This document shows positions 9,172 through 20,668 of a stretch of DNA of 41,601 nucleotides, piece after piece. Below the pieces are notes generated by a model. The model searched no databases. It saw only the letters and a program-made list of their open reading frames with translations, and was not told the origin of the DNA. Location of the stretch: contig CAMNQF010000031.1 in NCBI GenBank assembly GCA_946548895.1, forward strand, positions 1 through 41,601, read 5' to 3'. Made by a program: the position numbers and the translations under genes. The stretch comes from an uncultured bacterium (GTDB lineage: Bacteria > Bacillota > Clostridia > Oscillospirales > Oscillospiraceae). How positions within the stretch are numbered: the stretch's first letter is position 1; each line of letters begins with the position of its first letter.

Positions 9172-11835
9172 CTAATGGGCGTCTGCCCAGGTGCGCCCTG
9201 CCTTGGCGTCGGCAATCAGCGGCACCGACAGCGCCGCCACCCCCTCCATCTCCTCCTGGAGCAGGGCCTTCACCCGTTCCGCCTCGTGTTCGGGGCACTC
9301 CACGATCAGCTCGTCGTGGACTTGCAGGACAAGCCGCGCCTCCAGCCCCTCGGCCCGCAGGCGGGCGTCCACCTTGATCATGGCCAGCTTGATGATGTCC
9401 GCCGCCGTGCCCTGAATGGGCATATTCAGCGCCACCCGCTCGCCGAAGGACCGGGTGTTGAAGTTGGAGCTCTTCAGCTCCGGCAGCCAGCGGCGGCGTC
9501 CATACATCGTGGACACATAGCCGTCCTCCCGGCCCTGCTCCACCACCCGGTCCATATAGGCCCGGACGCCGGAATAGTGCTCGAAATACTTCTCCATATA
9601 CTCCTTGGCCTGGGGGACGGACACGTGGATGTCCTCCGACAGGGAGAAGGCAGAGATGCCGTACACGATGCCGAAGTTGACGGCCTTCGCCGCCCGGCGC
9701 AGCTCGGGGGGCACCTGGTCCTGGGGGAGCCCGAACACCTGGGAGGCGGTGACGGTGTGGATGTCCACCCCGGAGTTGAAGCCGCCGATCATGGCCTGAT
9801 CCCCGGACATATGGGCCAGCAGCCGCAGCTCGATCTGGGAGTAGTCCGCGTCCACCAGCACCCGCCCCCTGGGGGCCACGAACATCTTGCGCATCTCCGC
9901 CCCCAGGGAGGTGCGCACGGGGATATTCTGCAAATTGGGCTCGGTGGAGGACAGCCGCCCGGTGGCGGTGACGGTGTTCTGGAAGCTGGTGTGAACGCGG
10001 CCGTCGGCGGCGATGACCTTGCCCAGCCCCTCCACATAGGTGGAGTTGAGCTTGGTGAGCTGGCGGTAGTCCAGCACACGGCCCACGATGTCGTGGCGCG
10101 GCCGCAGCTTTTCCAGCACGTCCACGTTGGTGGACCAGCCGGTTTTGGTCTTTTTCACCGGGGGCAGGCCTAGCTTGTCGAAGAGGATATGGCCCAGCTG
10201 CTTGGGGGACAGGATGTTGAACTCCTCCCCGGCCAGGGCGTAGATCTCCTCCTTCAGGGCGTCGATGCCCAGCTGGAGCTGCCTGCCGAAGCCGGCCAGG
10301 GCCTGGCCGTCCACCAGCACCCCGGCCTTCTCCATCCGGGCCAGCACCGGGCACAGGGGCAGCTCAATGTCCGTGAGGACGGGCAGCAGGCCGAATTCCT
10401 CCAGCTTGGGCCTGAACAGGCCGAGGAGCGCCTCGATCCACGCCGCGTCCTCATACCAGGCGGCCTGGGCCTTCAGCCCGTCATCCAGCAGGGAGAAGGC
10501 CTCCTCTTCCTGATACGCGGCGCCCTGTTCCACTTCCTGTTTGAAATAGGACGCCGCCAGCTTTCGAATCTCGTAGCTCCCCGCCGTGGGGTCCAGCAGG
10601 TAGGCGGCCAGCTCGGTGTCGAACACAAAGCCCGCCGGCTCAATGCCCTCGTCCAGCAGGGCGCGGCACAGCTCCTTGACCCCATGGGCCGCCTTTTTCA
10701 CCCCGGGGCCGAACAGCGCCGCCAGCAGGGCGCGGTAGTCCCCCTCGTAGCGTCCGGCCCGGATGTCGTAGAGATACGCCTGGCCGCCGTCCCCGCTGAG
10801 GGACACCGCCACCCCCGCCAGCTCGGGCAGGGGCAGCACCACGACGCAGTCCGCCGCCTCCCACCTGGAGCGGGCCTCCTGAAAGTCCCGCTCCGCGGCC
10901 ACCTCCACCACGTCCACCCGGACCTCCGCCGGCTCCGGCCCGGGGGCGGCGGGCGCGGGGCCGGGGGTGAGCTTCAGCTTGTCGATGAGCTTGCTGAACT
11001 CCAGCTCCAGCAGCTTTTGGTACAATGCCGGCTGGTTGAAGGGCTTGCGGGCCGCGTCCGCCGGGTCGAAGCCCATGGGCGCGTCGGTGCGGATGACGGC
11101 CAGCTCATAGCTCAGGCGGGCGTCCCCCTCCCCCTCGGCCAGTTTTTTGATGACGCCGGGTTTGGCGTCAATATCGGGCAGCTTTTCATAGATGGCGTCC
11201 ACCGTCCGGTATTGCTGGATCAGGGCCATGGCGGTCTTTTCCCCCACCCCCTTCACGCCGGGGTAGTTGTCGGAGGAATCTCCCATCAGCGCCTTCAGGT
11301 CGATCATGTGGATGGGGTCGAAGCCGTAGGACTCCCGGAACTCCTCCGGGGTCACGTTCCGGGTGGTGGTCTGGCCCATGCGGGTGGACACTAGCTTGAC
11401 GGTGGTGCGCCCGTCGACCAGCTGCAGGGCGTCCTTATCCCCGGTGACGATGACGGTGTCCCCCCCCTGCGCCCCGTTCACCCGGGCCATGGTGCCCAGC
11501 AGGTCGTCCGCCTCCCAGCCCTCCAGCTCGTACCGGCGGATGTTCATGGCGTCCAGCACCTCCTTCAGCACCGGCATCTGGACGGCCAGCTCCTCCGGCA
11601 TCCCCTTCCGCTGGGCCTTGTACGCGGCGAAGGCCTTGTGCCGGAAGGTGGGGGCCCGCATATCGAAGGCCACCGCCAGCCCCTCCGGCCGCTCCTCGTC
11701 CAGCAGCTTGAACAGGATGTTCAGAAAGCCGAAGATGGCGTTGGTGGGCAGCCCCTCCCGGGTGGTCAGGTTCTGGCTGACGCCGTAAAAGGCCCGGTTG
11801 ACGATGGAATTGCCGTCGATGACCATAAGCTTCAT
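9172..11835 (-). CDS. polA: DNA polymerase I
   Basis: 887 residues. N-terminal 5'-3' exonuclease with MVIDGNSIVNRAFYG and WEADDLLGTMAR; middle 3'-5' exonuclease-like domain; C-terminal polymerase with motif A DADYSQIELR (about residue 662), motif B RRAAKAVNFGIVYG (about 713-726) and motif C QVHDELIVE (H840-D841-E842). The proofreading domain lacks the acidic DxE of Exo I (VVVLPLPELAG instead) and the Exo II aspartate, so proofreading is probably lost, as in Bacillus Pol I. Start ATG 11835 has GAGG about 10 bases upstream; a GTG three codons earlier is too close to any binding site. Confidence 0.95.
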   Translation of the reverse strand: MKLMVIDGNSIVNRAFYGVSQNLTTREGLPTNAIFGFLNILFKLLDEERPEGLAVAFDMRAPTFRHKAFAAYKAQRKGMPEELAVQMPVLKEVLDAMNIRRYELEGWEADDLLGTMARVNGAQGGDTVIVTGDKDALQLVDGRTTVKLVSTRMGQTTTRNVTPEEFRESYGFDPIHMIDLKALMGDSSDNYPGVKGVGEKTAMALIQQYRTVDAIYEKLPDIDAKPGVIKKLAEGEGDARLSYELAVIRTDAPMGFDPADAARKPFNQPALYQKLLELEFSKLIDKLKLTPGPAPAAPGPEPAEVRVDVVEVAAERDFQEARSRWEAADCVVVLPLPELAGVAVSLSGDGGQAYLYDIRAGRYEGDYRALLAALFGPGVKKAAHGVKELCRALLDEGIEPAGFVFDTELAAYLLDPTAGSYEIRKLAASYFKQEVEQGAAYQEEEAFSLLDDGLKAQAAWYEDAAWIEALLGLFRPKLEEFGLLPVLTDIELPLCPVLARMEKAGVLVDGQALAGFGRQLQLGIDALKEEIYALAGEEFNILSPKQLGHILFDKLGLPPVKKTKTGWSTNVDVLEKLRPRHDIVGRVLDYRQLTKLNSTYVEGLGKVIAADGRVHTSFQNTVTATGRLSSTEPNLQNIPVRTSLGAEMRKMFVAPRGRVLVDADYSQIELRLLAHMSGDQAMIGGFNSGVDIHTVTASQVFGLPQDQVPPELRRAAKAVNFGIVYGISAFSLSEDIHVSVPQAKEYMEKYFEHYSGVRAYMDRVVEQGREDGYVSTMYGRRRWLPELKSSNFNTRSFGERVALNMPIQGTAADIIKLAMIKVDARLRAEGLEARLVLQVHDELIVECPEHEAERVKALLQEEMEGVAALSVPLIADAKAGRTWADAH

Positions 11836-11868
11836 GGGGAACACCTCGCGTCGTCATAAGAATGATAT

Positions 11869-11897
11869 AGTATACCACTTTTCCGGGCCGGAAGCAA
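11869..11897 (-). promoter_or_regulatory. sigma-A promoter of polA
   Basis: Minus strand: TTGCTT (11897-11892), 17-base spacer, TATACT (11874-11869); expected start near 11862, giving a leader of about 27 bases before the polA ATG. Confidence 0.75.
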
Positions 11898-11906
11898 GCG
11901 GAACGG

Positions 11907-11934
11907 GGCACGGCCTCTTTTTGGCCCAAGTGCC
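11907..11934. terminator. Possible weak hairpin between the STAND gene and polA
   Basis: GGCAC-GGCC (11907-11915) pairs with GGCC-(CAA)-GTGCC (11923-11934) around TCTTTTT, with a 3-base bulge. It lies between the stop of the STAND ATPase gene and the polA promoter. No proper T tract follows on the minus strand, so termination is doubtful. Confidence 0.3.
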
Positions 11935-12000: not shown

Positions 12001-15000
12001 TCACCGTGCGGATGGAGTCTCGCGGGCGGCGCGCCGCTTTTCCACGTAGGCTGCCGCCTGGGCGCCCGTCGCGCCCTCACCCAGCTCCCGCATCGCCTGG
12101 AACGTCAGGTACATTAAATCGCTCTGCGCGCGCTTTCGCCTGACAGTGATCTGGTCAATGACCCGGTCTATGGCGGCCTGCTCCTCCTCCGAAACGGGTT
12201 CCAGCGCATACAGCTCCCCGGCCAGCTCCTCCATCGTCCTCTCGCCGCCCTCCGTCAGCGCGGCAACCTGTTCCCGCACGGCATCCAGATAGCGGGAAAA
12301 CCACTTGCGCTCCGCGGGGCGGTCATGGAGCAGTGCCAGCCATGCTTGACGGTCGAACCGCCAAGCGTTCGCCGCCTTTTCCTCCCGCCAGGAGAGGGAT
12401 TCCTGCGCCGTCTCCAGAAGGCGCTTGCGGTAAAGGGCCGCTTCCGCCGCCTGCCGTTCCATCCATGCGGGGTCTTTGGTATATTCGTAGTAGTGCTGGA
12501 AAAGCCGGCCGCCCCATTCCATCAGCCAAATCCAGTCCAGCTGGCGCGGACCGTTCGCGCCTCCCTCCCGGTCGCGGTCGGCCACCGCCTGTTCGTACAG
12601 GCGGAGCGCAAACTCCAGCCGCTCTTGTGTGAGCTCTTTTTCCATATAAAGGATACTTTGTATCGTCCCGAGCAGCCAGACGCTGCACTTTGCCCCGTCG
12701 CCCGCCTCACGGTAGGCCTCCGCCAAGGCAGCACCCAGGTCGTTGATCCGCCGCGTGAGCGCCTCCCTCTCGGCGGGATCCTCCAGCGTGCCGCAGATGC
12801 CTCTGGCCGTCTCTTCCCCGGCGCGGAGAAGTTCAATACGGCGTTCCAGTGCGCTGTCCCTTGGCTGCGCGGCGAGCAGCCGCTCCAGCAGGCGGAACAG
12901 CCAGATCCGCAGCACGGTTTTGTCCGCGCCGCTGCCCAGCGATTTAGTGAGCGCCTGCAAGCGTTTGACCGCGTGCCGGGCGCCCGCCTCCGCCGCCTGC
13001 CCGCCGCCAAAGCTGTCGGCAAGGGCGCACAGTCCGCCCAAGTAAAATCGGAGGAAGGGTTCTTTTTTGGACTGCGGCGTTTCGCGCCAGGCCAGCGCCC
13101 GGGGCAGAAGCGCGGCTGGCGGCGCCTTCTCATCCCGGAGCGCGGCAATCAGTTCAGCCGTCAGGTCGAGCAGGCACAGGCTGTCAGGGTTCCCGTCTGG
13201 GTTCCGCTCCCCGGCGGCGGCCAGCGCACCGGACAGGTCCCCGCGCAGGGCGAGGGCCAGCGCCAGACGCGCCGCGGCGTAGTTTTGGCCAGCCGGCCAG
13301 TTTTGGGCTTTCACCCGTGCCAGCACCTGCCGCAGCCAGCCCGGTTCCAGCAAAAGCTCAAATCCCAGTTCCGGGCAGCGGTGGCTGTCGGTGGCCTCCA
13401 GGCTAGCCGCGGCAAAGAGGCGCTGCTCACACTCATCAAGCGCGCCCTTTTCCTCCAGCTTTACAAACGCGCCCAGAATGGAGCGCACCAGGTTCTGCGG
13501 CAGGTGCTGGCCGGCGGCCTGTTCCCAGTAAAAGCGAAGCGCCGAGAGCAATTCGCGGTACAGCTCGGGCCAGAAGCCGGCGTCCCAATCCATGAGGGCG
13601 GTATCCGTCAGCGCCTGCAGATGGGGAAGGGCCCGGTCCATATACGTCGGATCCTTCCGCATCCACGCGCGGATTGACAGGCCATGGCAATATCGGAGCA
13701 GGGCGGTTTTCTCCTCCCGGGCGCCGCCGAGCAGAACCGCATTGCAGGTCTCTTCCGGCCAGAAACGGTCGGTGCCGTCGAGGATTTCGGGCACGCCGTC
13801 CTCATTTCCCGCCATGAGGAGCAATTCCGCGGAGAGAATCCGCATCTCGCTGCGCAGCTTGTCGTCCCGGGCGGGCAGAGGCTCCTGCCCGTCCCCTGTT
13901 CCGTCCAGCAGGCCGACCGCCAGCCTGATATAGCCTGTCCCGCCGCCGGCGCCGCCCTTGTTGTGCAGAATGACCCGGGCCTCCATCAGATAGCAGCGCA
14001 CGGCCAGGCGGCGGAATTCCAGCGTCCGCTTCCGCTGGATGATCTGCTCCCTGTCCATACCGTCAAGGAGGCCGCGAATTTTTGGGGTCAGCGTTTCGGC
14101 CGCCCCGAAGGACTGCCGGCGGTACAGGATTTCCGCCAGATCAAGCAGCGCCGCCGTGCCGTTCCACCGCATAGAGAACAAGTTGACCGCCGTCTGCGCG
14201 GAGGCGCACTCCAAAAGCTTGTCTCCCGCCTCGCGGAACTCCTCCTGGGGAAGATGGCACTGGTCGATGTACCGCACTTTTTCCAGCAGCGTCCAGCACA
14301 GCTCCGAAAAGGCGCTGTAATAATCGGAACGCGCGTCCAGCGCGGTGTACTCGCGCTCAAGATATTGAAAATCAGCCCGCTGCTCGTCCAGGTGCCGCCA
14401 GGGGTATTCCCAGCAGCCGGTGTACTTCCGGGGGTTTTGGGCGCTTTTGCGGCGCATGATACGCTTATACCGTGCGCTCAGGATCCCGAGCATCGTCTTC
14501 TCGGGGAGCTGGCCGGCGCCCACGTCTTCCACAAGCGCGTCGAAAACCTGTATCGCTTCATCCAATACCTTCGGCGCGTCGCAGAGGAGATCCTGATCCC
14601 CGGACTTCTCCATCGCGTCATAGAGGGACACGCACACCTGACCCAGCAGATGCCGCCAATAGGTTGCGGGGAAATACCTCACCTTCTGCCGGCAGATTTC
14701 CCGCGCCTCGCGCAGGTACGCAACGGCGTATTGATTTTTCAGCCCCGGCGTTTTGGCGGCCAGGGCCTCCACATACGCCCGGGCGGCCTCCAGGCTGCCG
14801 GAGTATTCCTGCGGGAATTTCAGGCGTTTCAGCGCCTCGTTCATCAGGTTGACGCCGTCGGTATACCTGCCCAGCCGGATCAGGCAGTGCGCCAGATACG
14901 ACTGCCATTTTGCCGCCTCCGGGGAACTTTCCTTCAGTGGTTCCAGGTACTCCCGCATACGCAGCAGGTGGGCCCCCCGTTCGCCGCCGGGCGTACTGTC

Positions 15001-17487
15001 GAGCCGCACAAGCAGTTCAGCCCAGCCGCAGGCGGCGTCCGGCTCGCCGAACTCGGAGAACGCGCCGCCCCAGCCCTCCTGCCCGCAGACGTCCCGGATG
15101 GTTTTCGTCAACTCCAGCGCCTCTTGCCACAGGGGAGAAAAACGCTCCTGCCTCAGCGCCTGTACGCACAGCCCGAACACTTTCCGCCACGCGCCGCGGT
15201 CCATGGGCCGGAGCTGCCGGTGGGCCTCCACCGTTTTGCGCCAGGCCGCGCAGTAGGGCCGGGGGTCCAGCTCCCAGTAAAGCGCCGCGAGCTCAATCCT
15301 GCCGGCCGGCGCGCGCCGCGCGGCGGGCGCGTCCCTGTCCGGGGAGAGGATGGCGAGCAGCGGACGGATCTTTTCAAACTGGGGCAGGTCGGCCGTGGCC
15401 GCCAATTCCAGCAGCGACAGCAGTGTGCCGGCCTGCCCGTCGTCCGCCCCCCGGGCGAGCGCCGTCAGGTAGCCCCCGCTGTCCTGCGCCAGCATAGTCC
15501 GAAACGTCTCCCAGAGCGGCGCCGGGGGCGTTTCCCGCGCCCGCCCCTCCTCCGGCGTGAGGCAGCGCAGCCCGGCGGGCACATCATCCGCCTGCCAGGC
15601 ATAGTAGAGGCGCCGCTCCGGCGCGCCGCCGGCCGACTCGCAGTGCCGCAGCAGCAGGGCGCAGTTGTGCCGGAACGCCGTCGGGCCCATATGGGAAATC
15701 AGGTTTTCCCGGAGCAGGCGGTGCTTGAAGTTCCACACGCCCTGGCCCGATTCGCCGAAGGAATCGTATAAATAGCAAAAAAGGTGCTCCATAAATACAG
15801 GGGGGAACGTTTTGCCCTGTTCGGCCAGCACCTGCCCCAATTCTTCCAGGGACAGGCCGTCCCGGGAGGCCGCCAGCAGCTCCAGCACCTCCATCGGGGA
15901 TGCCAGCGCCTCCTGCCGCGGGGGCATACGCTCCATCCGGGCCGCCAGCTTTTCCGCCGCCGAGCGCAGAAAGAGCACCGTCATCTCGCCGGTATCCTCC
16001 GGCATGGACTGAATCTCCCGGCACATATACAGGGACAGCCCCTCCATGCCGGGGGACAGCGCCTCCGCCCGCTCAAACTCGTGCTGGTCCATCATGAACA
16101 GCCGCTGTAAAAGCAGGGACAGGTGGAACGGGTTCCTCGCCCGGGGCTGCGCGCGCAGGCACCGCATAACCTTTGCGTCCAGTTTCTTGCCCCGGCGGGC
16201 GGCATGGTTCTGGATCATCGTGTTCAATTCCATATTTGTCAGGGGCGGGAGGTTTTGCCGGTTAAACGCCTCGCCAAGCGCGTCCCCGTACCGGTCCGCG
16301 AACTCCGCGGAGGAGGAGATGGCAAGGCCGTGCCAGTAGTATTCCTTTCCGCCACGGATCATGCGGCTGGCCAGCCAGCGCAGCACGGGCACGATATCCC
16401 CGTCCATCTGGTCAACGCCGTCGATCAGCACCGCCCAGTCGCAGGGCTGCTTCCTCGCGAGCATATCGTGCAGCTGAACGCGCACAGACTCGCCGCCCCG
16501 CCCGCCAAGACCGCACGCCCCGGGGGATGGCTCCGGCATAAACGTCCGCAGCCACGTCAGCAGCGCGAGGAGGAATGTGGACACCCCTGAGCAGCCTTCG
16601 TTGCCGCCGAAGTACAAAAAGATATGGGCGCCGGCCGCCTGTCCCTCCGCCGCGATTTTGGACATGACCGCGCTCTTTCCGGATCCGCCCTCGCCCACAA
16701 ACCAGAACGCCTTCCGGCCGGTGAGCGCGGAGGGGCCCGCCTCCCGGTCGGGCACGCGGCTGACATAGGTGGCGAGGTAGCGTTCCTTTGTCAGCCCGGC
16801 ATTTTGCAGCACGAGGCCGGCCGGGCTTTGCGGGGCGGTCCGGCCGCCGAGGTCATGGGCGATCATGGCCCAGAGGGCTTCGGTCAGCCGCTCCTCAAAG
16901 CGGCCCAGCCCGGCGGCGCTCCGGCGCTTGTCGTCCCAGACGGCGGTGTACTCCAGAATCACCGCGTCCTCCCTGGCCCGGATTTCTTCCTTGAGCTTGG
17001 ACAGCTTTCCGGCGTGGCGGGAACTCTCGGCCGCATAGATTGGGCGCTGGTCGTCCGGGACCTCCTGGGGGAACGCCTCATCGCGGAAGCAGAAAACGCA
17101 TTTGTCCAGCTTGTCCCGGCTCAGCGCGCCATAGAGGATCTCCATCTGGGTAATGCTGGCCTCCCCGCCGCACCAGGACAGGATGCGGCTGTCGCCCGTA
17201 TCCTCCACCACTTTGCGGTCGGGGATCCAGCCGTAGCGGTTTCCAAGCAAAACAATCATGTAGGGCTTGCATCGGTCGATGCTGTCAATGCACGCCTCAA
17301 TGACGAACTGGCCGCTCTCCTCCTCGGACAGCTGGCTGGTGTCCACACCCCAGCGCAGGTCGAGCTCCTGCACATCCTCGCCATAGGCGGCAAGCCGCCG
17401 GCGCAGCGCCGGGAAAACGCGCTGATGCAGGATATCCCGCTCCGCCTGCATATCCTTGAAGGTGCTGGAAATAAAAATAGATTTCAT
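12001..17487 (-). CDS. STAND ATPase: DUF4062-like domain, NACHT-type P-loop, long helical-repeat arm
   Basis: 1828 residues. Residues 1-95 (start MKSIFISSTFKDMQAERDIL; then LDLRWGVDTSQ and PYMIVLLGNRYGWIP) match the domain that opens TEP1, NWD1 and NPHP3 and bacterial DUF4062 proteins. A P-loop GEGGSGKS (265-272) and Walker B WAVLIDGVDQMD (351-362) define a NACHT-type NTPase, followed by RNPFHLSLLLQRL (451-463) and a predicted winged-helix stretch. The remaining about 1200 residues are helical with TPR-like segments such as WQSYLAHCLIRLGRYTDGV. No membrane segment. ATG 17487 has GGAGG 10 bases upstream; the frame opens at 17769 but the extension is non-coding leader. Role unknown; STAND proteins of this plan are often ligand-triggered switches, including antiviral sensors, and DUF4062 would be the effector or signalling part. 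No partner gene is adjacent. Confidence 0.88.
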   Translation of the reverse strand: MKSIFISSTFKDMQAERDILHQRVFPALRRRLAAYGEDVQELDLRWGVDTSQLSEEESGQFVIEACIDSIDRCKPYMIVLLGNRYGWIPDRKVVEDTGDSRILSWCGGEASITQMEILYGALSRDKLDKCVFCFRDEAFPQEVPDDQRPIYAAESSRHAGKLSKLKEEIRAREDAVILEYTAVWDDKRRSAAGLGRFEERLTEALWAMIAHDLGGRTAPQSPAGLVLQNAGLTKERYLATYVSRVPDREAGPSALTGRKAFWFVGEGGSGKSAVMSKIAAEGQAAGAHIFLYFGGNEGCSGVSTFLLALLTWLRTFMPEPSPGACGLGGRGGESVRVQLHDMLARKQPCDWAVLIDGVDQMDGDIVPVLRWLASRMIRGGKEYYWHGLAISSSAEFADRYGDALGEAFNRQNLPPLTNMELNTMIQNHAARRGKKLDAKVMRCLRAQPRARNPFHLSLLLQRLFMMDQHEFERAEALSPGMEGLSLYMCREIQSMPEDTGEMTVLFLRSAAEKLAARMERMPPRQEALASPMEVLELLAASRDGLSLEELGQVLAEQGKTFPPVFMEHLFCYLYDSFGESGQGVWNFKHRLLRENLISHMGPTAFRHNCALLLRHCESAGGAPERRLYYAWQADDVPAGLRCLTPEEGRARETPPAPLWETFRTMLAQDSGGYLTALARGADDGQAGTLLSLLELAATADLPQFEKIRPLLAILSPDRDAPAARRAPAGRIELAALYWELDPRPYCAAWRKTVEAHRQLRPMDRGAWRKVFGLCVQALRQERFSPLWQEALELTKTIRDVCGQEGWGGAFSEFGEPDAACGWAELLVRLDSTPGGERGAHLLRMREYLEPLKESSPEAAKWQSYLAHCLIRLGRYTDGVNLMNEALKRLKFPQEYSGSLEAARAYVEALAAKTPGLKNQYAVAYLREAREICRQKVRYFPATYWRHLLGQVCVSLYDAMEKSGDQDLLCDAPKVLDEAIQVFDALVEDVGAGQLPEKTMLGILSARYKRIMRRKSAQNPRKYTGCWEYPWRHLDEQRADFQYLEREYTALDARSDYYSAFSELCWTLLEKVRYIDQCHLPQEEFREAGDKLLECASAQTAVNLFSMRWNGTAALLDLAEILYRRQSFGAAETLTPKIRGLLDGMDREQIIQRKRTLEFRRLAVRCYLMEARVILHNKGGAGGGTGYIRLAVGLLDGTGDGQEPLPARDDKLRSEMRILSAELLLMAGNEDGVPEILDGTDRFWPEETCNAVLLGGAREEKTALLRYCHGLSIRAWMRKDPTYMDRALPHLQALTDTALMDWDAGFWPELYRELLSALRFYWEQAAGQHLPQNLVRSILGAFVKLEEKGALDECEQRLFAAASLEATDSHRCPELGFELLLEPGWLRQVLARVKAQNWPAGQNYAAARLALALALRGDLSGALAAAGERNPDGNPDSLCLLDLTAELIAALRDEKAPPAALLPRALAWRETPQSKKEPFLRFYLGGLCALADSFGGGQAAEAGARHAVKRLQALTKSLGSGADKTVLRIWLFRLLERLLAAQPRDSALERRIELLRAGEETARGICGTLEDPAEREALTRRINDLGAALAEAYREAGDGAKCSVWLLGTIQSILYMEKELTQERLEFALRLYEQAVADRDREGGANGPRQLDWIWLMEWGGRLFQHYYEYTKDPAWMERQAAEAALYRKRLLETAQESLSWREEKAANAWRFDRQAWLALLHDRPAERKWFSRYLDAVREQVAALTEGGERTMEELAGELYALEPVSEEEQAAIDRVIDQITVRRKRAQSDLMYLTFQAMRELGEGATGAQAAAYVEKRRAARETPSAR

Positions 17488-17620
17488 GGGCTTTTTTCCT
17501 CCGTCTCGTCCAGTTTGTAAGGAAGCGGATCCAGCGCGCGCGCAACCTGTGAACCTCGCCAAACGGCCGCGGGGATCCCCCGGCGTGATGCCCTCGCGAA
17601 TCAGGGCGGCTGCCGCGTAT

Positions 17621-17706: not shown

Positions 17707-17809
17707 CCGCCCAGCCGCGGCAAGCGCGTTTCTGATGTGCGCACTCCTCCTCAAGATGGGGCAGCGCAAGAATGAAATGCGGCGGGGCAGATTTGTTTAC
17801 AAATAATTC

Positions 17810-17855
17810 ATTGACTTCCTGGTCAACGAAGCGTATAGTTGACCAGGAAGTCAAT
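17810..17855. promoter_or_regulatory. Doubled TetR-type operator overlapping the tetR promoter
   Basis: Two 18-bp arms (17810-17827 and 17838-17855) are perfect inverted copies separated by 10 bases. Each arm is itself a palindrome, TTGAC-N6-GTCAA (17811-17826 and 17839-17854), the form expected for a TetR-dimer operator. On the plus strand the first half-site is the -35 box TTGACT (17811-17816) and 17 bases later TATAGT (17834-17839) is the -10 box, touching the second operator. Repressor bound at both sites would block this promoter, giving autoregulation of tetR and the antiporter. Confidence 0.85.
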
Positions 17856-17882
17856 TATATTGGCGGTCAAAATTGCGGCACT

Positions 17883-17908
17883 GTCCGCGCCCCTCCCGGG
17901 GCGTGGAC
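17883..17908 (+). promoter_or_regulatory. Strong hairpin in the tetR leader
   Basis: GTCCGCGCCCC (17883-17893) pairs with GGGGCGTGGAC (17898-17908) over 11 positions (one G-T) around the tetraloop TCCC. It lies between the tetR promoter and start codon. No T run follows, so an mRNA stability element is more likely than an attenuator. Confidence 0.45.
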
Positions 17909-17941
17909 ACAGAATGAATTGCTATTTGCCGGGGGGATTTG

Positions 17942-18559
17942 ATGAAACGGGAAGAGAAAGCGCGGCAGACAAGGCGGCGGATCATGGACCGCGCCCTGGC
18001 GGAGTTTTCCGCCCGGGGCTACCGGGCCGCTTCAATCAATAACGTATTTGATCCCGGGCAGGGCGTTTCAAAGGGGATCATCTACCACTACTTTGCCTCA
18101 AAGGACGAACTGTTTCTGGCCTGCGTGGAGGAGTGCTTTCAATCGCTGAAAGCCTATATACAGGACCATTTTCACCCGGATGGGGACGCGGTGGGCACGG
18201 GAGAATGCCTGACAGAGTATTTCGGGGTGAGGATGCAATTTTTCCGTGAATATCCCCTGTATCAGCGGATCTTTATGGAGTCCGTTTTTATGCCGCCGGA
18301 GCATTTGCAAGCCGGTATTATGGAGCGGCGGCGGCCCATGGAGCAGGTGAACGTGGAGATTTTGGAGGAGCTGTTCTCCCATGTGTCTCTGCGCGGCCAT
18401 TTGAACCGGGAAAACGCGGCCAAACTCCTCATTCAATTTATCAATTTTATCAATTTGCAGGATCACGGGACGGAACTGGATTTAACGGGCATCCAGCAGA
18501 TGGAGGAAAAGAACCGCCAGATTCTGGACATCTTCCTGAACGGTATTTTGGAAAGGTAG
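17942..18559 (+). CDS. TetR/AcrR family transcriptional regulator
   Basis: 205 residues. The N-terminal helix-turn-helix is clear: RQTRRRIMDRALAEFSARGY then SKGIIYHYFASKDELF, the TetR recognition helix; the remaining helical part is the ligand-binding and dimer domain. ATG 17942 follows a GGGGGG stretch and is preferred over the adjoining TTG. The doubled operator at 17810-17855 sits on its own promoter, so it is probably autoregulated and controls the antiporter gene that begins 12 bases after its stop codon. The inducer is unknown; a cation, drug or pH-related signal would fit the neighbour. Confidence 0.9.
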   Translation: MKREEKARQTRRRIMDRALAEFSARGYRAASINNVFDPGQGVSKGIIYHYFASKDELFLACVEECFQSLKAYIQDHFHPDGDAVGTGECLTEYFGVRMQFFREYPLYQRIFMESVFMPPEHLQAGIMERRRPMEQVNVEILEELFSHVSLRGHLNRENAAKLLIQFINFINLQDHGTELDLTGIQQMEEKNRQILDIFLNGILER

Positions 18560-18571
18560 GTCGGATACAGG

Positions 18572-18661
18572 ATGGAACTGATTGTTAGGCTGTTGGCCGT
18601 GATTATTCTGGCGGCGCTGGCGGGGAAGCTGGCGTCCAAGCTGAAAATGCCGGCGGTTTAG
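18572..18661 (+). pseudogene. Detached N-terminus of the cation:proton antiporter
   Basis: ATG 18572 opens a 29-codon frame beginning MELIVRLLAVIILAALAGK and ending KMPAV at a TAG (18659-18661). This is the first transmembrane helix and the KMPAV-LGFLIAGM motif of CPA2-type antiporters, but the continuation LGFLIAG is in another frame. Restoring one T in GGTTTAGG (around 18657) would join the frames. Either a true frameshift, an assembly indel in a T run, or recoding; no classical slippery heptamer is in register. Confidence 0.75.
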
Positions 18662-18666
18662 GATTT

Positions 18667-19815
18667 TTGATTGCGGGCATGGCCTTCGGACCCCACGCGC
18701 TGAATTTTATGACCCAGGAAATTCTGGATCATCCGGCGTACCACACGCTGGTCTCCCTTTTGGAGTGCGGCATGGGACTGATGCTGGGCAGCGAGATGGT
18801 CTGGCGGAAAATCCGCTCCTACGGAAAGCAGATTGTGGTCATTACTCTTGCCCAGTCCCTCATGACCTTCATCGTGGTAAGCGCCGCCTTTTCCGCCATC
18901 TTCTATTGGATGGGCATTCCTGTGTTCCTCGGGCTGGTTTTTGGCGGCATCGCCCTGGCCACGGCCCCCGCCCCCGCGCTGTCCATTGTCACGGAATACA
19001 AGACGGACGGCCCTGTGACCCAAACCCTGATTCCCTTGGCGGTCATTGACGATGTGATCGCCATCTGTGTGTTCCTGTCCGTGCTGGGGGTTGTCCTGCG
19101 GCAAACGGCGGGGGGATCCCTTCCCTGGTACCTGATCCCCCTGGTGGTCCTGTTCCCCGTTTTGATTGGGGCGGTCACAGGCGGCCTCGCCGCCGCCGTG
19201 ATGAAAAAGGTGTCCTCCCCCAAGGGGAACGCCGCCGTGGTGTGGGCCGGGGTGCTCCTCACCGCGGTGCTTACCGCCTTGGCCAACCAATACCTGATGC
19301 CGCTTCCCATTTTGAACTTTATGCTCAGCGGTATGGTGTTCTCAGCGGTCTTTGCCAATATTTTGGACGAGGCGAAGCTGGAGTCTGTGATGAAATGCTA
19401 CACCCCCGCCGTCAACGCCTGCTTCACCCTGATTATCCTGAACCTGGGGGCGCCCCTGGACTACCACCTCATTTTGGGGGCGGGGGCCTTCACCGCCCTT
19501 TACATCATCTCGCGGGCCGCCGGAAAGATGGGCGGGGCCGCGCTGGGCGCCCGGCTCTCCCACGCCGCCCCCACCGTGCAAAAATACCTGGGCATGGTCA
19601 TACTGCCCCATTCCGGCGTGTCCCTGGTGCTGACGGGAATCGCCATCTCCGCCCTGAGCGGCGGCTACAGCCAATACGGGGACATCGTGCGGGGCACCAT
19701 TGCCGCCGCCGCGGTGATCAACGAGATCATCGCCGTGTTTGTGGCCCGCCAGGGCTTCCGGCTGGCCGGCGAGATGGGACAGGGCGGCGTGTCCGCGGCG
19801 GCTCCGGCGGCGTAA
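18667..19815 (+). CDS. Cation:proton antiporter (CPA2/Kef-type), body of frameshifted gene
   Basis: 382 codons from the first TTG after the frameshift. About eleven hydrophobic helices remain. Family marks: LIAGMAFGPHAL at the start, GGIALATAPAPALSIV and the paired aspartates in PLAVIDDVIAICVFL, the ion-binding site of electrogenic sodium/proton exchangers. It exchanges monovalent cations for protons across the membrane. The rest of the gene carries no further damage, so the frameshift after codon 29 of the full gene (ATG 18572) is recent or artefactual. If real, the first helix is lost and activity is doubtful. It is in one operon with tetR. Confidence 0.85.
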   Translation: MIAGMAFGPHALNFMTQEILDHPAYHTLVSLLECGMGLMLGSEMVWRKIRSYGKQIVVITLAQSLMTFIVVSAAFSAIFYWMGIPVFLGLVFGGIALATAPAPALSIVTEYKTDGPVTQTLIPLAVIDDVIAICVFLSVLGVVLRQTAGGSLPWYLIPLVVLFPVLIGAVTGGLAAAVMKKVSSPKGNAAVVWAGVLLTAVLTALANQYLMPLPILNFMLSGMVFSAVFANILDEAKLESVMKCYTPAVNACFTLIILNLGAPLDYHLILGAGAFTALYIISRAAGKMGGAALGARLSHAAPTVQKYLGMVILPHSGVSLVLTGIAISALSGGYSQYGDIVRGTIAAAAVINEIIAVFVARQGFRLAGEMGQGGVSAAAPAA

Positions 19816-19816
19816 G

Positions 19817-19874
19817 CCGGGGGCACGTATCATTCCTGTCCCCGGAGAAAACCTTAAATATCCCGGTTTCCGGG
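19817..19874. terminator. Two hairpins between convergent antiporter and phosphotransferase genes
   Basis: CCGGGG/CCCCGG (19817-19822, 19840-19845) follows the antiporter stop, and CCCGG-TTT-CCGGG (19862-19874) lies just beyond the end of the minus-strand kinase gene, followed on that strand by ATATTT. Neither has a full T tract; they are plausible weak terminators for the two convergent genes. Confidence 0.35.
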
Positions 19875-19897: not shown

Positions 19898-20668
19898 TTA
19901 GCCAAAGGCTTCAAACGCGGCGATTACGGGAAGCATGGCGGCGTCGAAACGGTCCCTGCCGTACAGGTCCAAAAAGAGGCCCGTATATTGATCCGTTTTC
20001 AAATTATGCCAGAGGGACCAGACGGCCCAATACAGATCAATGTGGCGGTCCCCGGCCCCCGCCATGGCCAGATCAATCAGTGAGCCCGGCTGGCCGCCGT
20101 TCAGGATCACGTTGGGCAGGCAGAAGTCGCCGTGGATCAGTGTGTCGCTTTTGAGGCGGTGTTTGTTGGCCTGCATGACGCCCCAAGCCTCTTCTCTGGA
20201 GCGGACCGTGAACTCCGGCATCAGGACGGACTGGTCCCAGTAACCTCCATCCGGGTCTTCAGCGGAGGCGAGATACCGCTCCAGCCGGGTGGAGCGGGGA
20301 AGTCCGGCGGGGGACAGCGCGTGGAGCTCACGCAGAGTTTGGGCCAGGGCCCGGCACAGCCGCTCCGGGTCGTCCAGCCAGGAACACCCGTCTTGGCCGG
20401 GCAAGCTCCGGGTGAGCAGGTAGTCCCGGCCGCGGGAAATATATTGAACGACTTCCGCGCCAAGCCCCCGGCGGTGGAACCAGGCCGCCATTTGCGCTTC
20501 CCGCTTCAATTCGCCGCGCTCGTCGATTTTCAGATAAAAGTCCGGCGCGATAAAGAGCGTGCGGGCGTTGGAATGGCAACTGCTGTCATAGAGCTCGGCC
20601 TTCGACAAAAGCGGACGCAGTTCTGCCGGAAAATCTTGCGGGGAGAGCTGAATTTTTGCCCGTTTCAT
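19898..20668 (-). CDS. Aminoglycoside 3'-phosphotransferase-like kinase
   Basis: 256 residues of the APH(3') fold. Likely ATP-site lysine K47 in FYLKIDE and E57 in LKREAQM; catalytic loop LIHGDFCLPNVIL with D181 and N186; metal-binding D199 in SLIDLAMAGAGDRHID. The D-N-D spacing (5 and 13 residues) is the same as in APH(3')-IIIa as I remember it, and the end DQYTGLFLDLYGRD resembles that enzyme's C-terminus. It may phosphorylate aminoglycosides or an unknown natural substrate; overall similarity looks distant, and its base composition is that of the chromosome. ATG 20668 has GGGAGG 8 bases upstream, with its own promoter. Confidence 0.82.
   Translation of the reverse strand: MKRAKIQLSPQDFPAELRPLLSKAELYDSSCHSNARTLFIAPDFYLKIDERGELKREAQMAAWFHRRGLGAEVVQYISRGRDYLLTRSLPGQDGCSWLDDPERLCRALAQTLRELHALSPAGLPRSTRLERYLASAEDPDGGYWDQSVLMPEFTVRSREEAWGVMQANKHRLKSDTLIHGDFCLPNVILNGGQPGSLIDLAMAGAGDRHIDLYWAVWSLWHNLKTDQYTGLFLDLYGRDRFDAAMLPVIAAFEAFG

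Follow-up and report, generated by a model that had tools for sequence, protein, structure and literature searches.

A bacterial DUF4062-STAND protein akin to vault TEP1 as a candidate single-gene danger receptor with a putative NAD-cleaving effector

Introduction

A preprint of May 2026 (PMC13174449) described the DUF4062 domain as a TIR-like NADase and, through this domain, linked the bacterial antiphage protein Swarozyc to TEP1 of the vault. In that work KpSwz (PDB 10wc, 11cq and 11cv), a Swarozyc chain of 326 residues, was found to deplete NAD+ and abort infection on meeting the phage portal, which is bound by a small auxiliary domain of helix-turn-helix (HTH)/winged fold. A C-terminal auxiliary domain was common to the bacterial proteins tested, and the main text applied the term NACHT to human proteins only. 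Several of the four human DUF4062-NACHT proteins have WD40 repeats, and one of the four, TEP1, is an NAD(P)ase that depends on E1008 and whose activity is lowered by loss of R908 (PMC13174449). The order DUF4062, NACHT, TPR had also been noted in 2015 in a protein of Treponema azotonutricium ZAS-9, to which the part of that paper dealing with it assigned no function (PMC4452313). Here we report on a gene of an uncultured member of the Oscillospiraceae, at positions 12001 to 17487 of a stretch of 41,601 nucleotides (GenBank assembly GCA_946548895.1, contig CAMNQF010000031.1; the whole stretch is referred to as the window), the product of which has a DUF4062 domain followed by the core of a signal transduction ATPase with numerous domains (STAND) and a long helical arm.

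The chemistry of the DUF4062 domain was established by others, on relatives of the window protein, and the function of this part, left open in a preliminary description of the stretch, has been answered for those relatives as that of a TIR-like NADase. The new element is a bacterial family in which TEP1's own branch of DUF4062 is joined to a STAND switch, together with a tie to proteins with ryanodine receptor (RyR) domains. The window gene and its family are nearer to TEP1 than Swarozyc is, with the same domain branch and the same STAND coupling in one bacterial protein. They could reveal whether a bacterial immune receptor was the ancestor of the vault enzyme and how TEP1 is switched on, a matter of speculation in PMC13174449.

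Results and Discussion

Domain architecture and relationship to TEP1

The gene lies on the minus strand (17487..12001) as an intact open reading frame of 1828 codons with an ATG start at 17487, and a likely ribosome-binding site, GGAGG, is found at 17498..17502 on the same strand, 10 bases 5' of the ATG. The reading frame is real rather than a product of chance, because 31 distinct loci encode relatives. The preliminary description had reported one intact gene of this size with a set of motifs, and these were all present, namely (with the residues at which they start) ISSTFKDMQAERD, LDLRWG (42), LGNRYGWIP (81), GEGGSGKS (265) and LIDGVDQMD (354), K271 being the P-loop lysine. The parts of the protein are given below; the rows are those of alignment A1, which consists of the window protein and 28 of the 31 loci (L011 and L030 were left out as near-duplicates and L033 as a fragment).

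12001..17487, minus strand: DUF4062-STAND-helical-arm protein, 1828 residues (open reading frame and Pfam)
16843..17487, minus strand: DUF4062, TIR-like domain homologous to the TEP1 NADase domain, residues 1-215 (Pfam, PDB sequence match and family profile)
17140..17142, minus strand: codon of E116, which aligns with the catalytic E1008 in TEP1 (29 of 29 rows)
15568..16833, minus strand: STAND core with nucleotide-binding, helical and winged-helix parts, residues 219-640
16672..16695, minus strand: Walker A GEGGSGKS, residues 265-272, with P-loop lysine K271 (27 of 29 rows, gap in two)
16402..16428, minus strand: Walker B region LIDGVDQMD, residues 354-362, with D356 (27 of 29 rows, gap in two)
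12004..15567, minus strand: all-helical arm, partly TPR-like, residues 641-1828

Pfam DUF4062 (PF13271) matched residues 4-91 at 5.4e-12, with 46.2 bits where the cut-off is 24.7, which bears out the DUF4062-like N-terminus of the preliminary description. Among the chain sequences of the PDB, the sole match below E 0.6 was the DUF4062 domain of human TEP1 (11gz_A), at 2e-22, the alignment covering residues 4-209. A profile built from 26 bacterial family sequences matched TEP1 at 4.7e-44 over 2-214 and KpSwz at 0.0033 over 20 residues; a Swz-like protein aligned to this profile through the YTEME/SITLE glutamate. In the reverse search, a short, Swarozyc-type DUF4062 protein of the genus (L107, 1450-2469, 339 residues) matched KpSwz at 2.1e-46 and had no match to TEP1 at E up to 1. 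The profile and the reverse search therefore indicated that bacterial DUF4062 has at least two branches, and the window protein is placed on that of TEP1 by pairwise and profile scores rather than by a tree. Membership in Swarozyc was considered and rejected, as the window protein has 1828 residues, a STAND core and a helical arm and was matched by KpSwz over 20 residues only. A further short DUF4062 protein, of 320 residues, was seen in the same genus (L110, 811-1773).

To number the TEP1 residues, offsets of 888-899 were tried, and 893 alone fitted R908, R954, R976 and E1008 together. In the sequence alignment the catalytic E1008 corresponded to E116 of the window protein, R976 to R84, R908 to K11 and the BB-loop residue R954 to F61. 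E116, R84, S111, T113 and R45 were invariant in all 29 rows of A1, which come from several phyla; every row holds the search peptide TFKDMQAE, so that residues 9-16 are invariant by construction and residues 45-116 are not. In ten further DUF4062 sequences (one a fragment, one carrying the search peptide) the strict pattern SxTxxE was present in eight and RYG in seven. A comparison of DUF4062 with the TIR domain of L120 by hhalign gave no signal (E 0.14), and the TIR-like nature of DUF4062 therefore rests on PMC13174449 and on TEP1. For the N-terminal model, matches to the ATPase made up most of the Foldseek and VIA lists; absences from these lists carry no weight either way, and 11gz may postdate the fold library.

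The region after the DUF4062 domain had the features of a STAND P-loop ATPase, with Walker A and Walker B followed by helical and winged-helix parts in an APAF-1-like order. NPHP3_N, a NACHT-type Pfam model, matched it at 4.9e-4, under the cut-off of that model, and was above the cut-off in four of six relatives scanned (L004, L016, L020 and L024). The NACHT model PF05729 left the window protein unmatched at E up to 1; of the same six relatives, L016 and L024 passed its curated cut-off and the other four did not.

The remainder of the protein is the fast-diverging part and was predicted to be helical with moderate confidence (pLDDT 69), which backs the helical-repeat arm proposed previously; this arm is probably the sensor. 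The Pfam scan listed no match to TPR_NPHP3 and none to C-terminal WD40 propellers in the window protein, the C-terminal model of which consisted of helices only. Because TEP1 and NWD1 have WD40 repeats, the all-helical arm fits NPHP3, with its TPR, better. The proposal that the protein follows the plan of TEP1, NWD1 and NPHP3 thus stood for the kinship of the N-terminal domain with TEP1 and for the STAND core, and needed correction for the arm, which lacks WD40 and is nearer that of NPHP3. With TEP1 the window protein shares a DUF4062 domain that keeps the catalytic glutamate and precedes a STAND/NACHT ATPase; it differs in having a helical arm in place of TROVE and WD40, neither of which was found. 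Vaults, to our knowledge, are not known in bacteria. NPHP3 has the same order of DUF4062, NACHT and TPR-type helical arm, as does the T. azotonutricium protein (PMC4452313), and differs in being a human protein without NADase activity (PMC13174449).

Distribution of the family and the polA-tetR site

The 31 distinct loci came from scanning 84,980 species genomes for an exact peptide; two of them, L004 and L005, matched along nearly the whole length of the protein. The window gene was the sole family match in its own genome, in which Pfam DUF4062 also occurred just once. Counting the window's genome each time, matches were found in 2 of 42 genomes of the genus (the other being G015, a 28-36% relative), 3 of 300 of the family (of the other two, one matched at 9.1e-4 over 64 residues, probably by chance) and 6 of 394 of the order. 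Matches were absent from 40 of the 42 genus genomes and 388 of the 394 order genomes, some of which are incomplete. One Roseburia metagenome-assembled genome (MAG) had three copies (L010, L014 and L034), and a second DUF4062-STAND gene, unlike the first (62% to L021), lay about 4 kb upstream on the same strand in L009 (170-3841) and L011 (73-3744). The L005 frame had one in-frame TGA (8709) in otherwise open sequence of about 1697 codons, for which a pseudogene, recoding or an assembly error are possible.

The window is an entire contig (C31) of an assembly of 3.8 Mb (completeness 96%, contamination 4%), and this contig fits the genus because its polA reaches 89% identity with those of congeners. 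The flanking genes are as follows.

9172..11844, minus strand: polA (DNA polymerase I)
17939..18559, plus strand: TetR-type regulator
18667..19815, plus strand: Na+/H+ antiporter, found with tetR in one congener (G038) as well

These neighbours agree with the preliminary description of a gene standing alone in a housekeeping region. polA was detected in 40 of the 42 genomes of the genus. The STAND gene was missing from this position in all 18 congeners compared, with 2.9-17 kb upstream of polA covered. DNA similarity in all 18 regions ended at window 11835-11909, the start of polA, and none had a stretch of at least 120 bases matching the STAND gene. TetR-family matches occurred in 33 of 42 genus genomes, with a true relative (90%) in G038 only, where similarity spanned window 17786 to 19824 and the STAND gene was absent. 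The variation between strains that had been suggested for the polA-tetR site was accordingly observed, and the gene was not conserved at this locus in any congener compared. A role for tetR as regulator of the STAND gene was unsupported, since G038 has tetR and the antiporter without it, as was a link to polA, which the 18 congeners have alone. Relatives were found, by eye, in other housekeeping regions, namely ruvB-argH (L004), nadA (L017) and mutS (L019). Patchy occurrence, multiple copies and a variable site form the pattern expected of an accessory gene.

A putative NAD-cleaving danger receptor

We favour, with moderate confidence, the reading that the window gene encodes a STAND danger receptor complete in a single gene, with a probable antiphage role and, as its effector, a TIR-like DUF4062 domain of the TEP1 branch that is predicted to cleave NAD. 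Before activation, ADP would occupy the ATPase core and the receptor would be held shut by the helical arm. The fast-diverging arm would then bind a ligand, for which a phage protein is the likeliest candidate, upon which the core would swap its nucleotide and then oligomerise. This would bring DUF4062 domains together and allow them to cleave NAD+ with E116, and the expected outcome would be NAD+ loss and abortive infection.

Several observations weigh against this reading. Of the four human DUF4062-NACHT proteins, NWD1, NWD2 and NPHP3 had no NADase activity, so homology is no guarantee of it (PMC13174449). In addition, two arginines of TEP1 are replaced in the window protein, R908 by K11 (a position that the search peptide makes constant across the family set) and R954 by F61, and the model of the arm, of moderate confidence, is without a binding partner. 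PADLOC-DB 2023 gave no family for the window protein at E up to 1; the antiphage STAND proteins Avs and bNACHT, none of whose PADLOC models matches it, have different effectors. The genes immediately flanking the window gene include no known defence gene. Phage records held no match, and viral contigs none to the peptide pattern; two distant DUF4062 proteins were found among 72,556 plasmid records.

The clustering with defence genes that the preliminary description had anticipated was not found so far: besides the direct neighbours, the neighbour families of 13 relatives were largely metabolic, among the best 25 of 129 families. PADLOC was run on 103 neighbour proteins from 13 Firmicutes loci (out of 171 within 5 kb at 24 loci, and 234 called at 27 loci), which matched 53 families at 1e-10, two of them by two proteins and the others listed by one; generic families such as RecD and PD-T4-6 were among the best 25 of the 53. 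As a control, 91 open reading frames of polA regions (103 drawn at random from 170, minus polA copies) matched none. Defence-island enrichment is not claimed, as this GC-rich control, without a Pfam check, probably contains many false reading frames. In an all-against-all BLAST of the neighbours, families were shared by two independent loci at most. The overall interpretation of a single-gene defence or danger-sensing system thus retained the TEP1 kinship, the STAND core and the patchy, variable site, and lost the support of defence-gene clustering.

RyR-domain neighbours of relatives and a possible ADP-ribose signal

One pair in the neighbour BLAST (L016 and L017) was the RyR partner, recognised later through the G015 locus. 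An RyR gene shared the locus of the STAND gene in L016, L017 and L024 (3 of 29 scanned) and in G015, giving 4 of 31 genomes, against a rough chance expectation of about 0.1 (assuming about one RyR gene in 3000 and counting ten neighbours). The G015 partner, 477 residues encoded 33 bases upstream of the DUF4062-STAND gene, has a hydrophobic N-terminus, a C-terminal RyR domain (8.1e-7) and a glycine-rich motif, GFGTLG, as in NAD-binding folds. In L016 the partner lay 30 bases upstream and scored just under the Pfam cut-off for RyR, and in L017 a homologue stood beside a STAND gene with an interrupted frame. These three Firmicutes partners are one family, 43-57% identical, with the RyR domain at the end. 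In the Planctomycete L024 the gene of a 932-residue protein with two RyR stretches (2.7e-20) lay directly upstream, at a distance of 15-114 bases that varies with the start codon chosen. L179, L180 and L188 also have a DUF4062 gene next to an RyR gene; these cases were reached by way of RyR and stand outside the count, and L127 had a weak RyR-like match only, with no Pfam RyR.

The same partner family adjoined TIR-domain genes in G000, G001 and G026 and was one gene apart from one in G002; the TIR proteins of G001, G026 and G002 are TIR-TPR. One RyR membrane family therefore goes with either TIR or DUF4062-STAND proteins, an interchange that supports the view that both carry out the same chemistry; the two may fill the same NAD-cleaving slot. 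Phage RyR-domain proteins are described in a 2026 preprint (PMC13232231) as binding or cleaving cyclic ADP-ribose (ADPR) signals, with binding by six of eight homologues tested, nanomolar affinity measured for two, and ligand contacts in RyDEP at H75, W78, H100 and D117. The H, W, H and D were present in all 12 partner proteins aligned and lined up with RyR sequences of the PDB (6uhi, a RyR1 chimera, and 6uag); their equivalence to the RyDEP residues was set by the pattern and by the description in that preprint, rather than by the RyDEP sequence.

Based on these observations, a first alternative is that DUF4062 makes a messenger of the ADP-ribose type (ADPR or cyclic) that is read by the RyR membrane protein, here in trans from another contig or shared with a TIR protein. 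Besides the shared loci and the kept ligand contacts, this is favoured by the occurrence of partner-type genes in 8 of 15 close-family genomes with DUF4062-STAND (two of them near-identical). In the background, a sample of the family of G695 (Faecalicatena contorta, Lachnospiraceae), they were found in 6 of 199 other genomes at E below 1e-40; with E relaxed to 0.001 the number rose to 20 of the 199, including many partial or weak matches. One-sided Fisher values were 1.7e-7 (strict) and 1.1e-4 (loose), or 1.4e-6 and 4.6e-4 with the duplicate removed, from partner and STAND counts obtained by different search methods and a background unmatched for taxon. Set against this, the window gene has no RyR neighbour, the one PF02026 match of its genome being on contig C10, and in six of the eight partner-positive genomes the partner was not adjacent to the STAND gene. 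RyR matches occurred in 17 of 29 genomes of family loci and 9 of 42 of the genus, including 7 of the 40 without DUF4062-STAND. The TEP1 domain yielded no further ADPR derivative (PMC13174449), and RyR domains may degrade or buffer a signal rather than sense it. We regard such a messenger as possible and on balance doubtful. The RyR protein may read ADP-ribose products at the membrane, an idea that would extend to a bacterial alarm in two parts: a DUF4062-STAND protein of TEP1 type would turn NAD+ into an ADP-ribose signal for a membrane-anchored RyR protein, and TIR sensors could take the place of the former; this we put forward tentatively, as a speculation we would sooner doubt than adopt. 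If true, it would be a bacterial forerunner both of vault TEP1 and of the animal link between cyclic ADPR and the ryanodine receptor, and the recurrent RyR neighbours make the idea of ADP-ribose signalling testable in bacteria.

Nucleotide-sensing TIR, SLOG and possibly RyR proteins were reportedly treated by Burroughs et al. in NAR in 2015. Searches combining RyR with TIR, SLOG, STAND, NADase or conflict returned no title on a DUF4062-RyR pair. As whole words, RyR, TPR-S, TEP1 and NPHP3 were not mentioned in the text of PMC7159879, nor RyR, TEP1, DUF4062 and STAND in that of PMC9503650.

Several related gene arrangements were observed. In the window's own genome, contig C10 (L120, 4571-9824) has a cassette of a 669-residue protein distantly like the partner RyR region, a 542-residue TIR protein (TIR_2 at 2.5e-6, just above the cut-off) and, beside the latter, the partner, a 466-residue protein with a hydrophobic start and RyR; this cassette looks like an NAD-signalling defence unit. 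In congeners, the RyR membrane family stood by TIR-TPR proteins of 1135-1363 residues (L124, 3787-9411; L125, 4640-9500; L121, 2128-9646), and these pairs are a candidate for an unnamed defence system. DUF4062 genes in MAGs of Phycisphaerae (L188, 7781-16658) and Myxococcales (L180, 1235-8960) lay by proteins that appeared RelA/SpoT-like by eye and by RyR-like stretches. Downstream of the Planctomycete DUF4062-STAND gene, a 645-residue protein (L178, 8440-10374) with LLGVTGPRH near its start had no Pfam match and is reminiscent of SLOG nucleotide-sensing proteins.

Other readings and an adjacent gene

The DUF4062 domain might instead be catalytically silent and serve as a scaffold or oligomerisation module, as perhaps in NWD1, NWD2 and NPHP3. 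The lack of activity of those three proteins in vitro and the replacement of R908 and R954 would agree with this, as would the absence of strict SxTxxE from two and of RYG from three of the ten further sequences. We consider it unlikely, given that E116, R84, S111 and T113 are invariant in all 29 family members across several phyla and that, of the ten further sequences, eight keep SxTxxE and seven RYG. That the protein is an ordinary chromosomal regulator or a housekeeping chaperone without a role in conflict is very improbable: the gene does lie among housekeeping genes, and the listed neighbour families of relatives are largely metabolic, but the family is missing from most genomes of the genus and order and occurs in three copies in the Roseburia MAG, as tandem unlike copies in L009 and L011 and at a variable site.

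Beyond the antiporter, window 19898-20668 has an APH(3')-like phosphotransferase gene (7.2e-34; 117 bits, under the family cut-off of 205). Judged by this score, its predicted product is a distant kinase of the APH(3') fold rather than a named resistance gene.
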